In this document: piece after piece, positions 1,959 to 33,641 of the stretch
Layout: each line of letters opens with the position of its first letter
How positions within the stretch are numbered: the first letter of the stretch is position 1
Assembly: GCA_007122505.1 (NCBI GenBank)
Contig: SKTQ01000041.1
Coordinates: 1 to 33,873, forward strand
Length of the DNA: 33,873 nt
From: Bacteroidales bacterium
GTDB lineage: Bacteria > Bacteroidota > Bacteroidia > Bacteroidales > UBA7960
Reading direction: 5' to 3'
Notes under the pieces: model-generated
What the model saw: the letters and a program-made list of their open reading frames with translations, nothing else
What the model was told of the DNA's origin: nothing
Database searches by the model: none
Position numbers and translations under genes: made by a program

Positions 1959-4418
1959 ATGAGAGATGTATTTTTTATAAAAATAATAGTGCCAGCAATC
2001 TTGATCATCGTGCTGTTTGTATTTTCATTCTACCTCATCTTTCTTCCCATGGTGGAAAGAGGTTTTATGGACAGAAAAAAGGAGATGATCATGGAGCTGA
2101 CCAATTCAGCGCTGAGCGTAATAGATGAATATTATCTCGAAATTGAAAGGGGGAATCTTACGGAAGAAGTTGCCAAAGAGATGGCCATCAACCGGATAAA
2201 GTATATTCGTTATGGAGATGAAGGAAAGGATTATTTCTGGATCACCAATATGGTACCTGAGATGATCATGCACCCTTTCAGAACAGACCTCAACGGAACA
2301 GACATCTCGGATTATACAGACCCGGAAGGCACCAGGCTTTTTTATGAAGCGGTGAGAAAAGTAAAAGACAACGGGGAAGGTTATATCGATTATTATTGGC
2401 AATGGAAGGATGATAGCACTCGAATTGTTCCGAAGCTCTCTTTTGTTAAAGGGTTTGAACCCTGGGGCTGGATTGTTGGGACGGGGATATATCTCGAGGA
2501 CGTGAATGAGGAAATAAAAGCCATTGGAGGCAGGCTTGTTCGCATAACCCTGGTCATCATACTGCTGATCGCCATAATCGTTTTTTATATCACCAGGCAG
2601 AGCCTTATCATTGAAAATAAACGGATCGATGCGGAGAAAGAACTAATTCAATCACAGTTGAAATATAAGATGCTGGTAGAGGCATCTTCTGACAGCACCC
2701 TGATGTGGCTGGACGGAAAGCTGATCTATTACAATCAACCCATTCTGCGCCAGACAGGATATTCAGCCGGGGAGCTTTTGAAAAAGCAAATGGATGATCT
2801 TTTTACTATTCAGGATGAGTCTGTTAACGCCTTTTGTGATCGTGTAGATCAAAGCCGGAATACAGAAGCGATGCTTCGCACCAAAAGCGGAAAAGAAATT
2901 AGCGTTGTGATTACAATATCCAATATAGAGATCAGTGGGAAACGCGGTTTTATTTTTATCATTAAAGACGTAACCAGGCATTTGCTGCGTGACAGGTCTG
3001 AACAGATGCTGGAGGAAGAGTTAAGAACTGCTCTGACAATTATGAATGCTTCTGTGAATCTTTTTCTGCGTGAACCGGAAACTATTGACATGGATATGTC
3101 TGTTGAAGATGCCGGTATTCTGATGATAAGAAAACAAACAGACCTGCTTTTTGTGACGAAAAACGCAAAAGATATAGTAGGGGTAATTACCGGTGATGCA
3201 TTAATTGTGGAAGTATTGGGCACCAATACAGGTCTAAACCGAAAAGTTTTCAGCATCATGAGGTCTCCGGTGCATTTTGTTGATGAAAAGGCGTTGCTTT
3301 TTGAAGCTTTGCTGCTCATGGAGAAATGGCGCACCGAATATTTGACCGTTAAAAATGAAAAAAATCAGACGAGTGGTTATATTACAAAGCAGGATCTGTG
3401 TGAGGCCCAGCAAAATGTGTCCATGCTTTTGGTAAAAAGAATAGAAAAAGCTGAGTTGATTGGGCAACTTCAGGGTTTGTATGATAAACTGCCCGGAATA
3501 TTGTCATTGCTGCTTAGTTCTGACTCACAATCCAGAAATGTGGCACGCATATCAACGGTTATTTCGGATGCCATTGCGAGCCGCGTTATTGAACTCCTTA
3601 TTGAGAAAACTGGTCCTCCACCGGTAAAATTTGCATTTGTAGCCCTGGGAAGCGATGGGAGGGAGGAACAAACCCTGAAAACCGACCAGGATAATGCCAT
3701 CATATTCCAGGGTCAGCACAAAGAAGAAGTGCATACATATTTTCTTGATCTGGCCAAAAAAATAAACAAATGGCTGAATGAGATCGGTTATGAGTTTTGT
3801 AAAGGTAAAGTGATGGCCAGTAATCCTAAGTGGTGTCAGCCAATTTCACAATGGAAAGAATATTTCAGAGAATGGGTTGAAAACAGTGATCCGGAAAGCA
3901 TCCTGGATACTTCAATCTTTTTTGACATGCGCTTTGTGTATGGAGAGCCATCGCTTGTATCTGAGCTAAAAGACGAGATTAAGAAAACAACAGATGCAAA
4001 AGCTGTATTTTTCTCTCATCTGGCACAGTCAGTGCATCGTACGAAACCGGTTGCTTTTTCTGAAAAACTGGAATCAATTGACATTAAAAGAGCCATGCTG
4101 CCCATTGTCGGTTTTGCCCGTGTGTATGCTTTAAAAAACAAATTGAGTGAAACCAATACAGTATTCAGGCTAAGAGGTATAACAGCTTCCGAAAAGATAA
4201 ACCCCTCATTCATTCAGGAAATCATCAATGCTTATGAATACCTGATGTATTTGAGGTTCAGATTCCAAACAAAAAAGATTCAGAACAATGATGCCCCCGA
4301 CAATAATCTTTATTTGGCGTCATTAAGCAATATAGAAAAAGCTACATTGAAGGCCGCTCTGAATGAGATTACAGAGATATACGCACAACTTGGGTTTGAC
4401 TTTGAAGCCAATGTGTAA
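1959..4418 (+). CDS. Membrane sensor nucleotidyltransferase: TM - sCache_2-like - TM - PAS - CBS-like pair - DUF294 nucleotidyltransferase (GlnD-like) and C-terminal domain
   Basis: N-terminal TM; Cache-like YFWITNMVPEMIMHPFRTDLNG...WGWIVGTGIY; second TM LVRITLVIILLIAIIVFYI; PAS-like SQLKYKMLVEASSDSTLMWLDGKLIYYNQPILRQTGYS; CBS-like repeats; NTase signature FVALGSDGREEQTLKTDQDNAIIF. Confidence 0.85.
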   Translation: MRDVFFIKIIVPAILIIVLFVFSFYLIFLPMVERGFMDRKKEMIMELTNSALSVIDEYYLEIERGNLTEEVAKEMAINRIKYIRYGDEGKDYFWITNMVPEMIMHPFRTDLNGTDISDYTDPEGTRLFYEAVRKVKDNGEGYIDYYWQWKDDSTRIVPKLSFVKGFEPWGWIVGTGIYLEDVNEEIKAIGGRLVRITLVIILLIAIIVFYITRQSLIIENKRIDAEKELIQSQLKYKMLVEASSDSTLMWLDGKLIYYNQPILRQTGYSAGELLKKQMDDLFTIQDESVNAFCDRVDQSRNTEAMLRTKSGKEISVVITISNIEISGKRGFIFIIKDVTRHLLRDRSEQMLEEELRTALTIMNASVNLFLREPETIDMDMSVEDAGILMIRKQTDLLFVTKNAKDIVGVITGDALIVEVLGTNTGLNRKVFSIMRSPVHFVDEKALLFEALLLMEKWRTEYLTVKNEKNQTSGYITKQDLCEAQQNVSMLLVKRIEKAELIGQLQGLYDKLPGILSLLLSSDSQSRNVARISTVISDAIASRVIELLIEKTGPPPVKFAFVALGSDGREEQTLKTDQDNAIIFQGQHKEEVHTYFLDLAKKINKWLNEIGYEFCKGKVMASNPKWCQPISQWKEYFREWVENSDPESILDTSIFFDMRFVYGEPSLVSELKDEIKKTTDAKAVFFSHLAQSVHRTKPVAFSEKLESIDIKRAMLPIVGFARVYALKNKLSETNTVFRLRGITASEKINPSFIQEIINAYEYLMYLRFRFQTKKIQNNDAPDNNLYLASLSNIEKATLKAALNEITEIYAQLGFDFEANV

Positions 4419-5614: not shown

Positions 5615-7555
5615 TTATTTTTTTGGTGAGTGGTTGCTGTATATATCGTTAATTAAGTCTCCGTATTTTTCAGAAACGATATGGCGCTTAATTTTGAAGA
5701 GATTGGTGAGCTCCTTTCCTACTTCAAATTTTTCCGGTAGCAGCCGGAAATCACCAATTCGCTCATAGTTTTTAAACCCCGAAGCGGGGGAAATCAATCG
5801 CCGGATCTCTTTTTTCATGAGCTCTTTCGCTTCCGGAATTTGAACCAGCTCTTGAAGAGATCTGTGTTTTATACCGTTTTTGACAAATTCACAACCATTT
5901 AGCACTACCAGAAGCCCCAGAAACTTTTTGTCCTGTCCTACCACCATGCATTGGTCAATGTACTTGCTTTGCTGCAGATGCATCTCCATGGGCTCGGGTT
6001 CCACATTTTCGCCGCTGGAAAGGACAATGGTGGCTTTCGAGCGCCCCAGTATTTTTAGGCAGTCGTTATAGGTAATCATGCCGAGATCGCCGGTGTGGAA
6101 CCAGCCGTCCCGGATCGCAATTTCAGTGAGGTTTTTTTCTTTGTAATACCCCTTCATAACCTGTGGGCCACGAACCAGTATTTCCCCGCGTTTGCCCCGT
6201 CCTCCAAACTCACATGCTGGATCAGGAAAAAGGGTTTCCCCCGTTTCCGGATCAACAATGCGCAGCTCGGTCTCTTTAATGGGCGGGCCAACCGTGCCGA
6301 CAACAAGGTTAAGCTTGGGACGTACCGATATTACCGGCGATGTCTCTGTCAAACCATAACCTTCAAGAACCGGAATGCCCACATAATTAAAAAACTTGTC
6401 GATATGGATGGGGAGTGCCCCTCCACCCGAGATGGTAGCTGCCAGGGAACCTCCGGCACCCAGGCGGATGCGCTCCAGCACGGCAGCATTAAAAAAGCCG
6501 TACCACGGCAGCACCACTATCCATCGCAAAACGTGAAAGGGCATCAATAGCGATCGCTTCCAGGCAGGCTGCCTTTTAAGTTTCAAGTCTTTATTTGTGA
6601 TGAAGTATTCTGAATTTTTGTATTGTTTTGCCAGGAAGTAGGCAATTTTGAATAGCAATCGCCTGACCGGATGCGACTTTTTGATGTTGGCCAAAATCTT
6701 TTCATGTATCTTTTCCCATAGCCTTGGTGCCGAAGCCATAAACGTGGGCTCCACATTCTGCATATCTTCGCTGAGGGTAATGATTCCCGAATAGTAGGTG
6801 CACCCGCCAAAACTGATGGTGTACATCTCTATGATCCGTTCAAAAACATGCCAGATAGGCAAGACAGACAGGGTGCGGTCTGTGCAGTTGTGGTGTCCCG
6901 GCAGGTTACGGATCTGCGACATCATGTTGTCATGGGTGAGCATCACCCCTTTCGGTGTTCCTGTGGTGCCTGATGTATAAATCAGTGTAAACAGGTCGTC
7001 GGGCCTGATCCCCGCAATCCTTTCTTCCGCCTTTCGATCACCCCGGTTTCGCAGTTCCTCGCCTTTATGGCAAATGTCTTGCATACGCAACACACCTTCC
7101 GGGGGCTCTGCAGCAGGATCCAGCATCACGATATGCCGGAGCGCGGGCAGTTCCTCCTGCAGCTTAAGCAAACGAATGGCAAGCTGCTTAGTTTCGGCAA
7201 AACAGAATGTGATACCTGCATGATCGACGATGTATTTCAACTCCGCATCCGATACATCCCTGCCGCGGGGAACATCAGCAGCACCACAAAGCTGCACGCC
7301 ATAGTCGGCAAGTATCCATTCGTAGCGGTTGTCGCCGAAAAGACCCACATGATCACGCGCTTTCACACCATAAGCGATAAGTCCTGTGGCCAGGTTCAGC
7401 CCCTGCCGGTAAAGCTCTTTATAGGTTACGGGTTGCCACTCTTGTGCAGACTTCCTTGTGGCAAAGGCCGGCATATCATCAAAGCGCTTCGCCGCTTCGC
7501 CGTAGAGCAGCGCAAGATTGTCTGCTTCTGTGCGTTCAAATCTGGCATATTCCAT
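5615..7555 (-). CDS. AMP-binding long-chain acyl-CoA synthetase
   Basis: TLIYTSGTTGTPKGVMLTHDN (A-domain P-loop), EGYGLTETSPV, DGWFHTGDLG, and a C-terminal LGRSKATIVLSSGENVEP region. Confidence 0.92.
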   Translation of the reverse strand: MEYARFERTEADNLALLYGEAAKRFDDMPAFATRKSAQEWQPVTYKELYRQGLNLATGLIAYGVKARDHVGLFGDNRYEWILADYGVQLCGAADVPRGRDVSDAELKYIVDHAGITFCFAETKQLAIRLLKLQEELPALRHIVMLDPAAEPPEGVLRMQDICHKGEELRNRGDRKAEERIAGIRPDDLFTLIYTSGTTGTPKGVMLTHDNMMSQIRNLPGHHNCTDRTLSVLPIWHVFERIIEMYTISFGGCTYYSGIITLSEDMQNVEPTFMASAPRLWEKIHEKILANIKKSHPVRRLLFKIAYFLAKQYKNSEYFITNKDLKLKRQPAWKRSLLMPFHVLRWIVVLPWYGFFNAAVLERIRLGAGGSLAATISGGGALPIHIDKFFNYVGIPVLEGYGLTETSPVISVRPKLNLVVGTVGPPIKETELRIVDPETGETLFPDPACEFGGRGKRGEILVRGPQVMKGYYKEKNLTEIAIRDGWFHTGDLGMITYNDCLKILGRSKATIVLSSGENVEPEPMEMHLQQSKYIDQCMVVGQDKKFLGLLVVLNGCEFVKNGIKHRSLQELVQIPEAKELMKKEIRRLISPASGFKNYERIGDFRLLPEKFEVGKELTNLFKIKRHIVSEKYGDLINDIYSNHSPKK

Positions 7556-7858: not shown

Positions 7859-8161
7859 TTATACTACTTGCTGTGGTGCTTTTATTTTTATCTTTGTCAA
7901 TATATCTTGCTTGTCTTTTTTCTCTTCTTCAATATCATAATCATCCTGAAGGCCAAGCCAAAACTTTGCAGTAGTTCCAAAATATGACGAAAATCTCAGG
8001 GCTGTATCAGCAGTTATTCTCCTTTTACCTTTAATAATCTGTGAAACACGAGTCTGTGGTATTTCGGTATCCTTTGATAATCTGTACGCAGTTATTGAAA
8101 GAGGACGTAAAAACTCCTCAAGTAAAATCTCTCCGGGATGTATATTTGCTAATCTGTTCAT
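7859..8161 (-). CDS. higA: HigA-family addiction-module antitoxin (XRE-type HTH)
   Basis: HPGEILLEEFLRPLSITAYRLSKDTEIPQTRVSQIIKGKRRITADTALRFSSYFGTTAKFWLGLQDDYDIE is a classic HigA pattern; directly downstream of a RelE/HigB-like toxin. Confidence 0.93.
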   Translation of the reverse strand: MNRLANIHPGEILLEEFLRPLSITAYRLSKDTEIPQTRVSQIIKGKRRITADTALRFSSYFGTTAKFWLGLQDDYDIEEEKKDKQDILTKIKIKAPQQVV

Positions 8162-8179
8162 TATTAATCCTCCAATTAT

Positions 8180-8455
8180 TTAATGATAATCTGTTATCTC
8201 AACATCGTGTGCATTATTATCAATCCAACGAAATACAATTCTCCATTGGTCATTGACCCTGATGCTATAAAACTCGGAACCTCTTAATTTCTCAAGCCTG
8301 TTGGATGGTGGAATTTTCAAATCAGTCCAATTTTGAGAATTGTTGATCATCCTTAATTTTCTTCTTCCAATCTGCTGTATCTCAAACGGTATCTTTTTTA
8401 CTCGTTCTCCATTCCAAATTTTCCCGGTATCCCTTGAACCAAATGATACAATCAT
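8180..8455 (-). CDS. higB: HigB/RelE-family toxin
   Basis: MIVSFGSRDTGKIWNGERVKKIPFEIQQIGRRKLRMINNSQN...RLEKLRGSEFYSIRVNDQWRIVFRW: conserved HigB/RelE sequence, toxin-first order. Confidence 0.93.
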   Translation of the reverse strand: MIVSFGSRDTGKIWNGERVKKIPFEIQQIGRRKLRMINNSQNWTDLKIPPSNRLEKLRGSEFYSIRVNDQWRIVFRWIDNNAHDVEITDYH

Positions 8456-8634: not shown

Positions 8635-8868
8635 ATGAAAACACTCTCTCTTAAGCTAGACGAAGTTGTGTACAAAGAAACCGAGCAGCTTTTAGAAAAA
8701 ATCAAAAAGCCTAGAAATCGTTATATCAACGAGGCTCTTAGCTATTATAATCGTCTTCAGAAAAGAAAACTGATCGCTAACCAATTAGCGGCAGAGTCAA
8801 AAGTTGTGAGTGTGGATTCAATGGCCATTCTCTCTGAATTCGAAAAACTTGAAGGTCATGAAAGCTAA
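8635..8868 (+). CDS. Antitoxin, ribbon-helix-helix-like (MazE-position partner of a MazF/PemK toxin)
   Basis: MKTLSLKLDEVVYKETEQLLEKIKKPRNRYINEALSYYNR: short RHH-type N-terminus; overlaps the toxin start by 11 bp. Confidence 0.8.
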   Translation: MKTLSLKLDEVVYKETEQLLEKIKKPRNRYINEALSYYNRLQKRKLIANQLAAESKVVSVDSMAILSEFEKLEGHES

Positions 8869-9205
8869 GCAGTTTGAAGTTTGGCTGGCAAACCTTGATC
8901 CAAGTTTTGGCACCGAAGCTGGGAAAACAAGGCCGGTTCTGGTTGTACAAACGGATTTATTGAATAAGATTCACCCATCCACCTTAATTTGTCCAATTAC
9001 AACGAATGTTTATCCGGAAAGCCGGATACTGAGGGTCAATATAAAAAAGGGTGTTGCGCATGTAAAAGAAGATTGTGCTATAATGATCGACCAATTGCGG
9101 GCAATTGACAACAAAAGATTATTTAAAAAAATTGGCAAGGTGCCTGGTGGTATATCAGATAAGGTAAAAGAGAACCTGAAGATAATCCTTGAGTTGGATG
9201 AATAA
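8858..9205 (+). CDS. MazF/PemK-family endoribonuclease toxin
   Basis: MKAKQFEVWLANLDPSFGTEAGKTRPVLVVQTDLLN...CPITTN...CAIMIDQLRAIDNKRL: PemK/MazF motifs. Start taken as the internal Met (8858) rather than the listed ORF start (8810). Confidence 0.92.
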   Translation: MKAKQFEVWLANLDPSFGTEAGKTRPVLVVQTDLLNKIHPSTLICPITTNVYPESRILRVNIKKGVAHVKEDCAIMIDQLRAIDNKRLFKKIGKVPGGISDKVKENLKIILELDE

Positions 9206-26025: not shown

Positions 26026-27660
26026 ATGATGAAAAAACCAAAAAAGGAAACATCTGAGCCGGATGATCCTCTTGTGAGCAAAAAGCGTTTCTTTGATGTT
26101 GACCACCGTGTTTTTTGGCCTTCCGCGGTTATCATTGTTTTTTTTATTGCTGTTACATTGATTGTGGGGGCACCCATGGATCGGGTTTTTGCTATGATCC
26201 AGGAAGGCATTTCGCATAATGCCGGATGGTTTTTTGTTTTGTCGGTCAATTTCTTCCTGGTATTTGTATTGGTGATGTCAATAACAAGGTACGGCAATAT
26301 TCGGCTTGGAGGACGAATGGCGAAGCCTGAGTTCAGCACAACGGCCTGGTTTGCCATGTTGTTCAGTGCCGGAATGGGGATTGGCATTCTGTTCTGGAGT
26401 GTGGGAGAGCCCATTTTGCATTATGTAACACCTCCCTTAGGAAGCGGAAGTACGGTTAGGTCGGCCGAGGTTGCCATGCAAACTACCTTTCTGCACTGGG
26501 GTTTGCATGCCTGGGGTATTTATGCCCTTGTTGGAATGTCACTGGCATTTTTTACCTTTAACAAAAAGCTGCCGCTGACAATCAGCTCTGTTTTTTTCCC
26601 TTTGATAGGGAAACGGGTGCATGGCGGATTGGGTAAATCGATCAATGTACTTGCTGTTGTTGCTACTTTGTTTGGCCTGGCTACTTCATTGGGACTTGGG
26701 GTTCAGCAGGTGAGTGCCGGGCTCGAGCATCTGCTCGGTTGGGAAGATAATGTAACTACCCAGGTGATTCTGATCGGTGTCATTACCCTGGCAGCTACTG
26801 CTTCTGTGGTTGCCGGGCTCAGTCATGGTGTAAAGCGCCTCAGTCAGCTAAATATCATCATTGGAAGCTTTTTTCTTCTTTTTATGCTGATTGTTGGACC
26901 ATCACTGTTTATTTTAGGTTCCTTTGTTCAGAACATTGGTGGTTACCTGGATAATTTCTTTGCTTTGAGTTTCTGGACGGAAACCTATCAGCAATCTGAC
27001 TGGCAGAAAGGATGGACGGTTTTTTACTGGGCATGGTGGATCAGCTGGTCTCCTTTTGTAGGGATGTTTATCGCCCGCATATCCAGGGGGCGGACATTGC
27101 GCGAATTTATCCTGGGGGTGTTGATTGTACCAACCATCATTACATTTTTATGGCTGTCGGCCTTTGGTGGTTCTGCCATTTATCTGGAGCTGAATGCAAT
27201 TGCCGACATTTCCGTAGCTGTTTCTGAAAACGTGGCGACTTCTCTCTATCGTCTGCTGGAGCAGTTTCCCCTGGGATATTTTACTTCCATTGTTGGTGTG
27301 GTTCTTGTAACCAGTTTTTTTATCACATCTTCCGACTCCGGCTCACTTGTAATTGACAGTCTGACTGCAGGAGGCAAACTTGATGCGCCTGTTGCACAGC
27401 GCGTTTTCTGGGCCGTAACAGAAGGTGCTGTGGCTGCCGTTTTGCTTATTGGCGGGGGGTTGGGTGCGTTGCAAACTGCATCTATCATTACCGGCTTGCC
27501 GTTTGCCTTGGTGTTGATCATTATGGCTTATAGCTTGCTGAAAGGACTTAGGGAGGAACATTTTAAGCTGATGCGGTATGAGATTGAAAAGGAAAGAAAG
27601 TCTTATCAGGAAATCATTTCCGATGTCATAAAAAAAAGAGAGAAAAAAAGCAAAAAATAA
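26026..27660 (+). CDS. BCCT-family (betaine/choline/carnitine) transporter
   Basis: GMGIGILFWSVGEPILHYVTPP and FYWAWWISWSPFVGMFIARISRGRTLREFI are BCCT signatures. Confidence 0.95.
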   Translation: MMKKPKKETSEPDDPLVSKKRFFDVDHRVFWPSAVIIVFFIAVTLIVGAPMDRVFAMIQEGISHNAGWFFVLSVNFFLVFVLVMSITRYGNIRLGGRMAKPEFSTTAWFAMLFSAGMGIGILFWSVGEPILHYVTPPLGSGSTVRSAEVAMQTTFLHWGLHAWGIYALVGMSLAFFTFNKKLPLTISSVFFPLIGKRVHGGLGKSINVLAVVATLFGLATSLGLGVQQVSAGLEHLLGWEDNVTTQVILIGVITLAATASVVAGLSHGVKRLSQLNIIIGSFFLLFMLIVGPSLFILGSFVQNIGGYLDNFFALSFWTETYQQSDWQKGWTVFYWAWWISWSPFVGMFIARISRGRTLREFILGVLIVPTIITFLWLSAFGGSAIYLELNAIADISVAVSENVATSLYRLLEQFPLGYFTSIVGVVLVTSFFITSSDSGSLVIDSLTAGGKLDAPVAQRVFWAVTEGAVAAVLLIGGGLGALQTASIITGLPFALVLIIMAYSLLKGLREEHFKLMRYEIEKERKSYQEIISDVIKKREKKSKK

Positions 27661-27666
27661 ATCAAT

Positions 27667-28587
27667 ATGGCTTCATTTAAAAATATCATCATATGTCTTG
27701 ATCTCACCGAGATGGATGAAGTGCTGATCAAGTATGCCAACTTCCTCACCAGTACCTTTGAGTCAAAGAAACTCACCTTTATTCATGTTATGGAAACCAT
27801 TGATATTCCGGATGAGTTAGCCGAAGCTTTTCCGGATATGGATAAGCCGTTAAACGAAATCATCCGGGAAGAAATAGAGGAGCAGGTACACGGGTTGTTT
27901 GAGCACGCTGACAAGGTGGAAATAGATATCATTCTTGATAGTGGTATCCCGACAGAGCAAATTATTCAGCATGCCCGAAAGCGTCGTGTTGATCTGGCTT
28001 TGCTTGGAAAAAAAACAGGTTATGCAGGCGAAGGGGGTGTTGCAAAGCGAATTGTGGGGTTGATGCCCGCCACGGTGTTGATGGTAAGTGAAACATCACC
28101 TCATCATATAAATAATATTCTGGTGCGGATGGATTTTTCAAAAATGTCGGCTATGGCCCTGAAAACCGCTCAAACCATTGCCGGTCATACCCAGGCTAAG
28201 GTGGAGTGCCATCATGTGTATAAGCTTCCGCTTGACTTTATGCCGCAACAATCGCCATCTGCCTTACAGAAACTAAAGAAACAGATGGGCGGCTTTGTCA
28301 GCAAACAATTTGCCGGATTTCTAAAAAAGAACAAAATGGAAGCGGATGCAGTGTGTACATACTCCATTGATCATCATGGAGATGAAGCCCAGATCTTGTA
28401 CGGGTATGCTATCAAAACCGGGGCAGACCTTGTTCTGGCTGGTTCAAAAATTAAATCACCACTGGCCAATGTAATGCTCGACAGCACTTCTGAAAAACTG
28501 GCTTCTCCCAATAAAAGCATTCCGGTGATGGTTGTCAAAGACCAGAAACAATCCATCGGGTTTTTAAAAGCATTGTTCGATTTTTAA
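27667..28587 (+). CDS. Universal stress protein, two UspA-like domains
   Basis: ICLDLTEMDEVLIKYANFL...ARKRRVDLALLGKK; second domain ILVRMDFSKMSAMALKTAQ...TGADLVLAGSK. 6 bp after BCCT. Confidence 0.85.
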   Translation: MASFKNIIICLDLTEMDEVLIKYANFLTSTFESKKLTFIHVMETIDIPDELAEAFPDMDKPLNEIIREEIEEQVHGLFEHADKVEIDIILDSGIPTEQIIQHARKRRVDLALLGKKTGYAGEGGVAKRIVGLMPATVLMVSETSPHHINNILVRMDFSKMSAMALKTAQTIAGHTQAKVECHHVYKLPLDFMPQQSPSALQKLKKQMGGFVSKQFAGFLKKNKMEADAVCTYSIDHHGDEAQILYGYAIKTGADLVLAGSKIKSPLANVMLDSTSEKLASPNKSIPVMVVKDQKQSIGFLKALFDF

Positions 28588-28599
28588 AATCAAAGAGTT

Positions 28600-29478
28600 A
28601 TGAGAAATTTTGCTATATGGTATATACTGTTTTCTTTCGTTTTAATGGCAGGTTGTGCTGAGCCTGTTCCTGATGACAAGGCTGACAAGAAGGAAATATA
28701 CATTGTTTATACTGATTGGGCCGAATGTGTGGCATTGACTTGTCTTTCCCAATATTTACTTGAGGATTATCTTGGTTATGATGTAATTACGCGGATGACC
28801 GATATTGAGACTGTTTTTGCAGATATTGCTTCCGGTCGTGCTGATGTGTTTACAGATGTTTGGGTTCCGCACACCCATGCCAGTTTCCTGGAACAATACG
28901 CGGGTATGTTTGAAGATTTGGGGCCCAATTATTTGGAAGCACGAACCGGACTGGTAGTTCCAGGTTACATGCCGGTGGAAAGTATTCCTGGTTTGCGGGA
29001 ATTGTATACCGATCCCATTACCGGGATTGACACCAGTGCGGGTATCATGCGCAATACGATGGAGGCCATTCTTGCCTATGAGCTTGAAAACGAGCTTTTG
29101 GTACTTTCTGATCCTGAGATGACTCAAAAACTTAGGGATGCTATACTTCGAAGGGAGTCCATTGTGGTTACCGGATGGGAGCCTCACTGGATATTTCACA
29201 GGTATGACTTACGGTTTCTGGACGACCCTTTTGGTATTTATATGGAAAAAGAAGCTATCCATTCCATATCCAGAAATGGTTTTTCGGAGGATTTTCCCAG
29301 GGCGGCGCGTCTTTTTGAACGAATGGTCCTCAGTGAGCGGCAAATGAACAGCCTCCTTTATGAGGTTGAGCGCCGGCACGATTCAAGGGAAGGGGTTATT
29401 GAATGGGTAAAAAACAATGAATTTATTGTGAATCGGTGGGTGAGAGGGTTAATGCCTGAAAGAGAAAAAATCATGTAA
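28600..29478 (+). CDS. Glycine-betaine/proline-betaine binding lipoprotein (OpuAC/ProX-type)
   Basis: Lipobox LMAGC; IYIVYTDWAECVALTCLSQYLLEDYLGYDV, GRADVFTDVWVPHTH, VVTGWEPHWIFHRYDLRFLDDP. 12 bp after the USP gene. Confidence 0.88.
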   Translation: MRNFAIWYILFSFVLMAGCAEPVPDDKADKKEIYIVYTDWAECVALTCLSQYLLEDYLGYDVITRMTDIETVFADIASGRADVFTDVWVPHTHASFLEQYAGMFEDLGPNYLEARTGLVVPGYMPVESIPGLRELYTDPITGIDTSAGIMRNTMEAILAYELENELLVLSDPEMTQKLRDAILRRESIVVTGWEPHWIFHRYDLRFLDDPFGIYMEKEAIHSISRNGFSEDFPRAARLFERMVLSERQMNSLLYEVERRHDSREGVIEWVKNNEFIVNRWVRGLMPEREKIM

Positions 29479-32811: not shown

Positions 32812-32906
32812 CAAATTAGTTGTGCCACATCGGCTACCGGCATTGCGGGTAATAACTAAAATGGGTGTCTGGTTTGCAAAAACAAGGGATTCTGTTTAAA
32901 AAAAGC

Positions 32907-32914
32907 TATCTTTG
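32907..32914 (+). promoter_or_regulatory. -7 element TATCTTTG of the PAS-LuxR gene
   Basis: TAnnTTTG match, 31 bp upstream of ATG 32946. Confidence 0.5.
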
Positions 32915-32945
32915 TCAAGAAAACCTCTCGAAAGGTAAATGGCAT

Positions 32946-33641
32946 ATGGCACACAGCGGCAAAGAACAATCAGAGAGTCGTCTTTTGCGTAAATACCTTG
33001 AACTGCAAAATGAATTTGGTATTTATGAAAAGATCATCAACCGTTTGGATGCCATAATCCTTATTCTGGACTTCAATAATTCGAAGATCGTTTATGCCAA
33101 TAGTCAGTATGAAAAAGTTACCGGCTACCCTGCTGCCATGCAAGCTGAATTTGATATAGACGAACTCAGGTCCCGATATCATCCGGAAGATCGATGCTAT
33201 CCCGACGAAGCAGTAGAGTATTTGCTGGGTAATCCTGATGGCAGCTTCACAGCTTTTTACAGATTTCTTCATGCCGGGGGCCATTATTTGTGGTTGTTCT
33301 CGTCGAGCCAGGTCTTTCGCTTGTTACCGGAGGAGGATATTTTTGAGATCATCACCGTTAGTCTTGACTTTACGGGGCCTGTTAAGTATGAGAAGAGCAT
33401 GAAAAGCTTTGTTAAGGATCAATTAAGGGGGTTAAACAACACGGAAGTATCAAAGATCAGTAAAAGAGAGCTGGAAGTCTTGAAGTTGTATGCTGCCGGG
33501 TTCAATACCAGGGAAGTGGCAGCTAAATTGAACATCAGCCATCATACCGTAAATAATCACAGAAAGAATATGTTAAAAAAACTTGGGTTAAAAAATCTGG
33601 CAGCCCTGGTGAATTTTGCGGTTGAAATTGGAATAGATTGA
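32946..33641 (+). CDS. PAS-domain LuxR-type transcriptional regulator
   Basis: PAS-like DAIILILDFNNSKIVYANSQYEKVTGYPAA; LuxR HTH SKRELEVLKLYAAGFNTREVAAKLNISHHTVNNHRKNMLKKLGLKNLAALV. Confidence 0.9.
   Translation: MAHSGKEQSESRLLRKYLELQNEFGIYEKIINRLDAIILILDFNNSKIVYANSQYEKVTGYPAAMQAEFDIDELRSRYHPEDRCYPDEAVEYLLGNPDGSFTAFYRFLHAGGHYLWLFSSSQVFRLLPEEDIFEIITVSLDFTGPVKYEKSMKSFVKDQLRGLNNTEVSKISKRELEVLKLYAAGFNTREVAAKLNISHHTVNNHRKNMLKKLGLKNLAALVNFAVEIGID

Follow-up and report, generated by a model that had tools for sequence, protein, structure and literature searches.

A membrane sCache-PAS-CBS-DUF294 nucleotidyltransferase gene adjoining a metallophosphoesterase gene in a Bacteroidales symporter cluster

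Domain organisation of the sensor-nucleotidyltransferase

The window, i.e. the whole stretch of 33,873 nucleotides that was analysed, contains at 1959-4418 of the forward strand an ATG-started open reading frame of 819 residues, hereafter called the sensor-NTase. The reading frame, the Pfam matches and full-length homologues define the order sCache_2 - PAS - CBS2 - DUF294 - DUF294_C. A sequence-only reading of this DNA had proposed a Cache, PAS, CBS and nucleotidyltransferase architecture with two transmembrane (TM) segments, and both proposals were borne out: Pfam profiles find every domain, all scoring over the curated cut-offs, the Cache and PAS domains on which that reading depended included, and the hydropathy profile shows two TM segments and no more, one on each side of the Cache domain, with starts near residues 4 and 193.

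All features of the gene lie on the forward strand. TM helix 1 (1980-2048, about residues 8-30; limits approximate from hydropathy) is followed by the sCache_2 domain (2067-2522, residues 37-188; PF17200, 2.5e-40, 138.4 bits against a cut-off of 25) and by TM helix 2 (2535-2591, approximately residues 193-211). Lying between the two TM segments, the Cache domain is placed in the periplasm and the remainder of the protein in the cytosol; the Lys/Arg residues that follow TM helix 2 are consistent with a cytosolic C-terminal part. This part comprises a PAS domain (2664-2975, residues 236-339; Pfam PAS_9/PAS and TIGR00229, the PAS_9 match covering residues 251-339 at 2.2e-11), a tandem CBS (Bateman) module (3054-3428, approximately residues 366-490; two Pfam CBS stretches, the better at residues 432-484 with 1.6e-11), the DUF294 nucleotidyltransferase (NTase) core (3492-3896, residues 512-646; PF03445, 5.8e-46, 156.3 bits against a cut-off of 21) and a DUF294_C helical substrate-binding domain (4065-4400, residues 703-814; PF10335, 6.5e-24, 84.8 bits against a cut-off of 22.5).

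A profile search of its own assembly, which is about 86% complete, returned the sensor-NTase as the sole DUF294 match. Many Bacteroidales genomes encode full-length homologues, at 38-92% identity, and the gene is therefore a conserved one.

Gene cluster around the sensor-NTase

Upstream on the same strand, a metallophosphoesterase (MPE) gene of 248 codons (1201-1947) ends 11 nt before the start of the NTase gene, and is itself preceded by the 3' part of a gene for a DcaP-like outer-membrane porin (1-1179; profile match to 6eus, 1.4e-5). DcaP itself is a dicarboxylate porin. The 5' end of the porin gene lies on another contig of the assembly, C23 (4301 nt), whose end overlaps the start of the window by 121 identical nt. 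Outside the window but in the same cluster, C23 holds at 3460-243 of its reverse strand a long DUF4212 protein (TIGR03647), which is the symporter small subunit, an SSF symporter assigned to the VC_2705 family (TIGR03648; its matches to ActP and MctC are weaker) and a TPR protein; this symporter is the only one of the genome over the TIGR03648 cut-off. The most economical reading is that the window and C23 form one cluster split by the assembly, a repeat being also possible. The resulting order of six genes is symporter small subunit, VC_2705/ActP-like Na+ symporter, TPR protein, DcaP-like porin, MPE and sensor-NTase, and the same upstream order recurs in homologue contigs from other genomes. 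The DUF4212 small subunit is about 250 residues long at two loci (L019:2256-3008 and L016:3576-4328) compared to 80-90 elsewhere, with the long stretch placed between the conserved ends.

Among the 68 sensor forms having at least 5 kb of upstream sequence, a symporter was found within 8 kb in 49 and in none of the other 19. Some of the sensor-form loci carry a DUF485 (YjcH-like) and SSF pair in place of the VC_2705-type set, so that the symporter, by far the most frequent neighbour other than the phosphoesterases, is present in two distinct subtypes. When the linked symporters were scanned for a target residue, 17 invariant Tyr were found in the VC_2705 type and 3 in the ActP type, none of which was singled out. 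An acyl-CoA synthetase gene (5615-7555) and an SBF transporter gene were considered as members of the system and dropped as convergent genes; among the loci inspected they adjoin the NTase gene only in the window and in its closest relative, L002, except for one SBF gene at L016.

The cluster resembles acs-yjcH-actP with CrbS/R (MxtR/ErdR) in combining an SSF symporter, a small DUF485/DUF4212 partner and a DUF294 protein. In that system, however, control is transcriptional and exerted by a two-component system, whereas here a one-protein sensor-NTase is encoded within the transporter cluster.

Distribution of the membrane form in the DUF294 family

The DUF294 proteins had been taken, in the sequence-only reading, as normally soluble. 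This does not hold in Bacteroidales, where the sCache sensor is present in 48 of the 56 loci that were fetched and inspected (L101-L156), two of the other eight being cut at the 5' end. Strong DUF294 matches were obtained in 60 of 393 sampled Bacteroidales genomes. Outside Bacteroidales, the sensor-NTase form was found in other members of the phylum (L189-L200) and in Desulfobacter-type genomes; in the latter, two or three copies lie at one locus without MPE (L217, L243, L244). Of 194 genomes sampled from the Desulfobacter class, 183 have a DUF294 domain match, the weakest of these matches being likely other NTases. The membrane form is thus not a curiosity of one genome, as it occurs across Bacteroidales, the rest of the phylum and Desulfobacter-type genomes: it is a regular branch of the DUF294 family. 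In a tree of 106 NTase domains, made by a quick method and with many weak nodes, the sensor label needs four changes, whereas shuffled labels need about 31 on average.

Some variation was observed within the branch. Many sensor-NTase relatives carry a second PAS domain. At L106:6719-8767 and L112:8325-10376, two N-terminal TM helices precede a Cache-less PAS-CBS-DUF294 protein that still adjoins an MPE, i.e. the sensor is lost and the partner kept. The sensor-NTase copies of the Desulfobacter-type loci adjoin a soluble DUF294 gene (L217:4328-15457, L243:2527-7948, L244:5689-16080), and one paralogue at each of these loci is extended at its N-terminus by about 150 residues.

The soluble cNMP-binding - CBS - DUF294 proteins (the Pflu5625 and PP_0354 group) have the CBS, DUF294 and DUF294_C core in common with the sensor-NTases, and both are tied to acetate/pyruvate symporters and paired with a phosphoesterase-type enzyme. 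They differ in the cytosolic cNMP-binding domain, which takes the place of TM-sCache-PAS, and in having a DEDD exonuclease as neighbour instead of an MPE. Assignment of the window protein as a canonical soluble cNMP-CBS-DUF294 protein was rejected: it has two TM segments, its neighbour is an MPE and not a DEDD exonuclease, and Pfam gave no cNMP_binding match, whereas the soluble controls L060, L204 and L233 do match. The architecture is a new arrangement of known parts, and similar proteins are present in public genomes. In our literature search, which covered few subscription journals, we found no paper on the Cache-NTase architecture or on an exchange of phosphoesterases, and nothing on DUF4212 or on Cache combined with a nucleotidyltransferase output.

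Phosphoesterase partners of DUF294 proteins

The context of 130 non-identical DUF294 reading frames, 88 of them sCache-bearing, was compared, an MPE being counted as neighbour when it lay no more than 400 nt away and in the same orientation. A survey of the neighbourhoods showed that an MPE directly precedes the sensor-NTase in most relatives. It adjoins 57 of the 88 sensor forms, and a separate DEDD exonuclease adjoins none, while the soluble forms have a DEDD exonuclease neighbour in 21 of 37 cases and an MPE in none; neighbours were called by HMMs from single seeds and the loci are clipped at contig ends, so the absences, including that of a directly adjacent same-strand MPE in 31 of the 88, are soft. 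A second unthinned set gave similar counts (MPE next to 55 of 86 sensor forms, exonuclease next to 21 of 37 soluble forms). After thinning at 60% identity, the sensor forms showed 38 MPE and 0 exonuclease neighbours out of 57 and the soluble forms 0 and 15 out of 23 (Fisher p=1.6e-13). The gap between the MPE and NTase genes has a median of 15 nt, and the two touch or overlap in 13 of 55 pairs.

Across the 393 genomes, MPE and strong DUF294 matches occur together in 44, MPE only in 10 and DUF294 only in 16 (Fisher p=5e-35, kinship being ignored). In three of the 10 MPE-only genomes a contig end truncates the sensor-NTase, and a fourth is unreadable for this reason, so that six remain; at least 6 Bacteroidales genomes thus have the MPE with no DUF294 found. 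In three further genomes the MPE is located away from the NTase. At L252:6461-8605 and L255:3807-5939, in genomes without DUF294 match, the MPE adjoins a DcaP-like porin, and it may have a role independent of the NTase.

Other phosphoesterases are found in the same position as in-frame fusions. At L018 a PHP phosphoesterase domain, and at L119 an RNase_T (DEDD) domain, lies ahead of sCache-PAS-PAS-CBS-DUF294, and both fusions adjoin a DUF485 and SSF pair, which is the YjcH/ActP arrangement. Five loci (L124, L129, L135, L136 and L138) have an opposite-strand neighbour of 251 residues with similar starts, that of L124 being a Metallophos protein in Pfam.

The metal-site motifs DIH, GD, GNHD, H148 and GHMH are kept in the window MPE and invariant, and in a fold search its structure model is near 3rqz and the Ap4A hydrolase/phosphodiesterase SapH, the nearest characterised protein. 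As unrelated phosphoesterases fill the same position, removal of a phosphodiester-linked product would be part of the system, and we hypothesise that the NTase and the phosphoesterase act as writer and eraser.

The nucleotidyltransferase domain

The NTase signature GSDGREEQTLKTDQDNA occupies residues 564-580 (G564-S565 ... D576-Q-D578, 3648-3698). It was described as intact in the sequence-only reading, and the family agrees: G564, S565, D576 and the downstream D656 are invariant among 84 members and D578 is kept in 83. D656 (3924-3926, in FFDMRFVYG) begins a predicted strand, from which position, and by comparison with the GlnE motifs, it is a candidate third catalytic Asp. The expected acidic residues, D576, D578 and the candidate D656, are therefore all present.

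A sequence search of the PDB with the NTase gave no solved DUF294 relative. The structure model of residues 489-819 (pLDDT 87) matched only three PDB entries with E<0.001 in a fold search, namely the halves of E. coli GlnE, 3k7d (2.8e-6) and 1v4a (3.9e-6, TMq 0.71), and DrrA (6yx5). As GlnE and DrrA are protein AMP-transferases or relatives of these, the activity favoured from the model is the transfer of AMP to a protein. The cyclic-dinucleotide synthase DncV came at rank 50 with E=1.9, and an assignment by fold as a CD-NTase/second-messenger synthase was rejected. DUF294_C has been grouped with GlnD/GlnE-type C-terminal domains (PMC3710099).

GlnE (glutamine synthetase adenylyltransferase/deadenylylase) and GlnD (PII uridylyltransferase) present, like the sensor-NTase, an NTase fold, a helical substrate-binding domain and a metabolic input. 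Reversible protein modification is their known role and only a proposed one for the sensor-NTase; moreover, they are soluble with the removal activity in the same polypeptide, whereas the sensor-NTase has a periplasmic input and its proposed eraser is usually a separate gene.

The periplasmic sensor domain

The closest solved relatives of the sensor are, by PDB sequence matches, 4k08 (Adeh_3718) and 5g4y (PscD of Pseudomonas syringae). The ligands of PscD are glycolate, acetate, propionate and pyruvate, the propionate being contacted by seven residues (PMC5062169). These residues, Y90, W92, H103, F126, Y143, W145 and K156, correspond to Y92, W94, H105, F128, Y145, W147 and K159 of the window protein, all seven being identical, and each is kept in at least 95% of 84 aligned sensor-NTases. 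N94 and M129 of PscD, which also line this region, are replaced by T96 and A131, and the exact ligand may therefore differ. Considering this residue mapping, our best guess is that the sCache_2 domain binds C2/C3 monocarboxylates. The NCBIfam MctS model also matches the sensor part (1.8e-28). The chemoreceptors PscD and McpP, Adeh_3718 and the kinase MctS share the sCache_2 fold and the full set of propionate contacts with the sensor-NTase, but their output is an MCP or histidine-kinase module and not an NTase.

Proposed mechanism and alternatives

We propose, tentatively and at somewhat less than an even chance for the reading as a whole, a carboxylate-gated reversible nucleotidylylation. A short monocarboxylate of the acetate, propionate, pyruvate or glycolate class would bind the periplasmic sCache_2 domain, and the signal would travel via TM helix 2 to the PAS and CBS domains and set the NTase activity; to this input the PAS domain would add a cytosolic cue and the CBS pair an adenine-nucleotide cue. 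The GlnE/GlnD-type NTase would then modify a protein with a nucleotidyl group, most probably AMP, a mark which the co-encoded MPE would take off. The most likely target would be the Na+/monocarboxylate symporter encoded in the same cluster, or the small subunit that goes with it, favoured as the commonest other neighbour and in two subtypes; the modification would be inhibitory, so that uptake is adjusted post-translationally. The sequence-only reading that an extracellular ligand and cytosolic cues drive an NTase output without kinase or cyclase is supported in this respect, and the ligand class can be narrowed to C2/C3 carboxylates. Its description as one-protein signal transduction misses the partners, namely the MPE and often an ActP-like symporter cluster.

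Published genetics bear on the target, which the same reading had left as unknown and for which they, together with the gene context, point to the symporter as a candidate. In P. fluorescens, the cNMP-CBS-NTase protein Pflu5625 belongs to the CrbS/R acetate regulon (PMC5715377). In P. putida, growth on pyruvate is impaired by deletion of the exonuclease gene pp_0353 or of actP-I, but not of pp_0354, and in P. aeruginosa PAO1 the homologues adjoin actP and yjcH (PMC9927547). The link between P. putida and DUF294 rests on the descriptions of Pflu5625 as a cNMP-CBS-NTase (PMC5715377) and of pp_0354 as a CBS protein (PMC9927547). The P. putida phenotype would fit an inhibitory mark that cannot be removed; the silent deletion of pp_0354 is equally expected of an irrelevant gene. 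Further points against the proposal are the sensor forms lacking an adjacent same-strand MPE (31 of 88) or a symporter within 8 kb (19 of 68), and the Bacteroidales genomes, at least six, in which an MPE but no DUF294 was found.

Four other explanations were weighed. The same writer-eraser pair may have as target a soluble enzyme, e.g. acyl-CoA synthetase, or a PII-like regulator, in response to carboxylates. This is unlikely, even though GlnE and GlnD modify soluble proteins, the window gene and some of the soluble forms have an acyl-CoA synthetase gene nearby, and the 19 sensor forms without symporter within 8 kb point in the same direction. Against it, that gene is on the opposite strand and confined, as a neighbour of inspected sensor forms, to the window and L002, and the symporter prevails in the neighbourhoods.

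Quite unlikely is a small molecule as product or substrate of the NTase, either a second messenger or a nucleotidylated metabolite, which the phosphoesterase would degrade. Second-messenger synthases exist among the Pol-beta-fold NTases, MPE, DEDD and PHP enzymes often use nucleotides, and among characterised proteins SapH is closest to the MPE in fold; however, the fold search places GlnE far ahead of DncV, DUF294_C is a helical domain of the GlnD/GlnE type, and the neighbourhoods hold no recurrent messenger-receptor gene.

A degenerate or purely regulatory catalytic domain, which would act on the symporter allosterically by binding to it and transfer no nucleotidyl group, appears improbable. 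It agrees with the silent pp_0354 deletion (PMC9927547) and with the literature found, in which no paper assigns a biochemical function or activity to a DUF294 protein (few subscription journals being covered by the search), but the catalytic residues are almost invariant over 84 divergent members and a module for binding only would not need them. Finally, an action of the pair on RNA, the NTase extending ends and the phosphoesterase trimming them to control transporter or TCA-cycle mRNAs, is very improbable in spite of the nuclease-like RNase_T/DEDD partners and of the mRNA decay proposed for pp_0353 by the P. putida authors (PMC9927547), as the fold search gave no RNA NTase match, the exchangeable partners have in common phosphodiester chemistry and not RNA binding, and the MPE contains no RNA-binding domain recognised by Pfam.

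The preferred reading, reversible nucleotidylylation of the symporter, could be extended to a periplasmic carboxylate receptor that directly controls this modification of Na+/monocarboxylate symporters, with DUF294 as writer and an exchangeable MPE, DEDD exonuclease or PHP enzyme as eraser; soluble DUF294 proteins, in Pseudomonas among others, would follow the same scheme and differ only in their sensor and eraser modules. We regard this general form as possible but rather doubtful. If true, acetate/pyruvate uptake would be under a general post-translational control, and receptor-controlled protein nucleotidylylation would be a further kind of transmembrane output next to kinases, cyclases and chemoreceptors. 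The partner pattern turns the widespread DUF294 family into a writer-eraser hypothesis, which offers an account of the unexplained P. putida phenotype and puts forward an eraser, a class of ligands and a candidate target.

Other assignments and genes of the window

A role in anti-phage defence was considered and rejected: the NTase has no PADLOC match, the MPE weakly matches the candidate model PDC-S10 (7.5e-5), and the NCBIfam DS11 match spans the CBS part only, far under the cut-off. A viral origin was likewise discarded, with no matching phage record.

Elsewhere in the window, a HigB-like toxin gene and an HTH antitoxin gene of the HigBA type lie at 7859-8455 (-), with a PemK/MazF-type toxin gene near this pair at 8810-9205 (+). 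Genes for a BCCT transporter, a universal stress protein and an OpuAC glycine-betaine binding protein are consecutive at 26026-29478 (+) and likely form an osmolyte uptake cluster. At 32865-33641 (+), a PAS domain is fused to a LuxR-type HTH, possibly as a one-protein transcription regulator.
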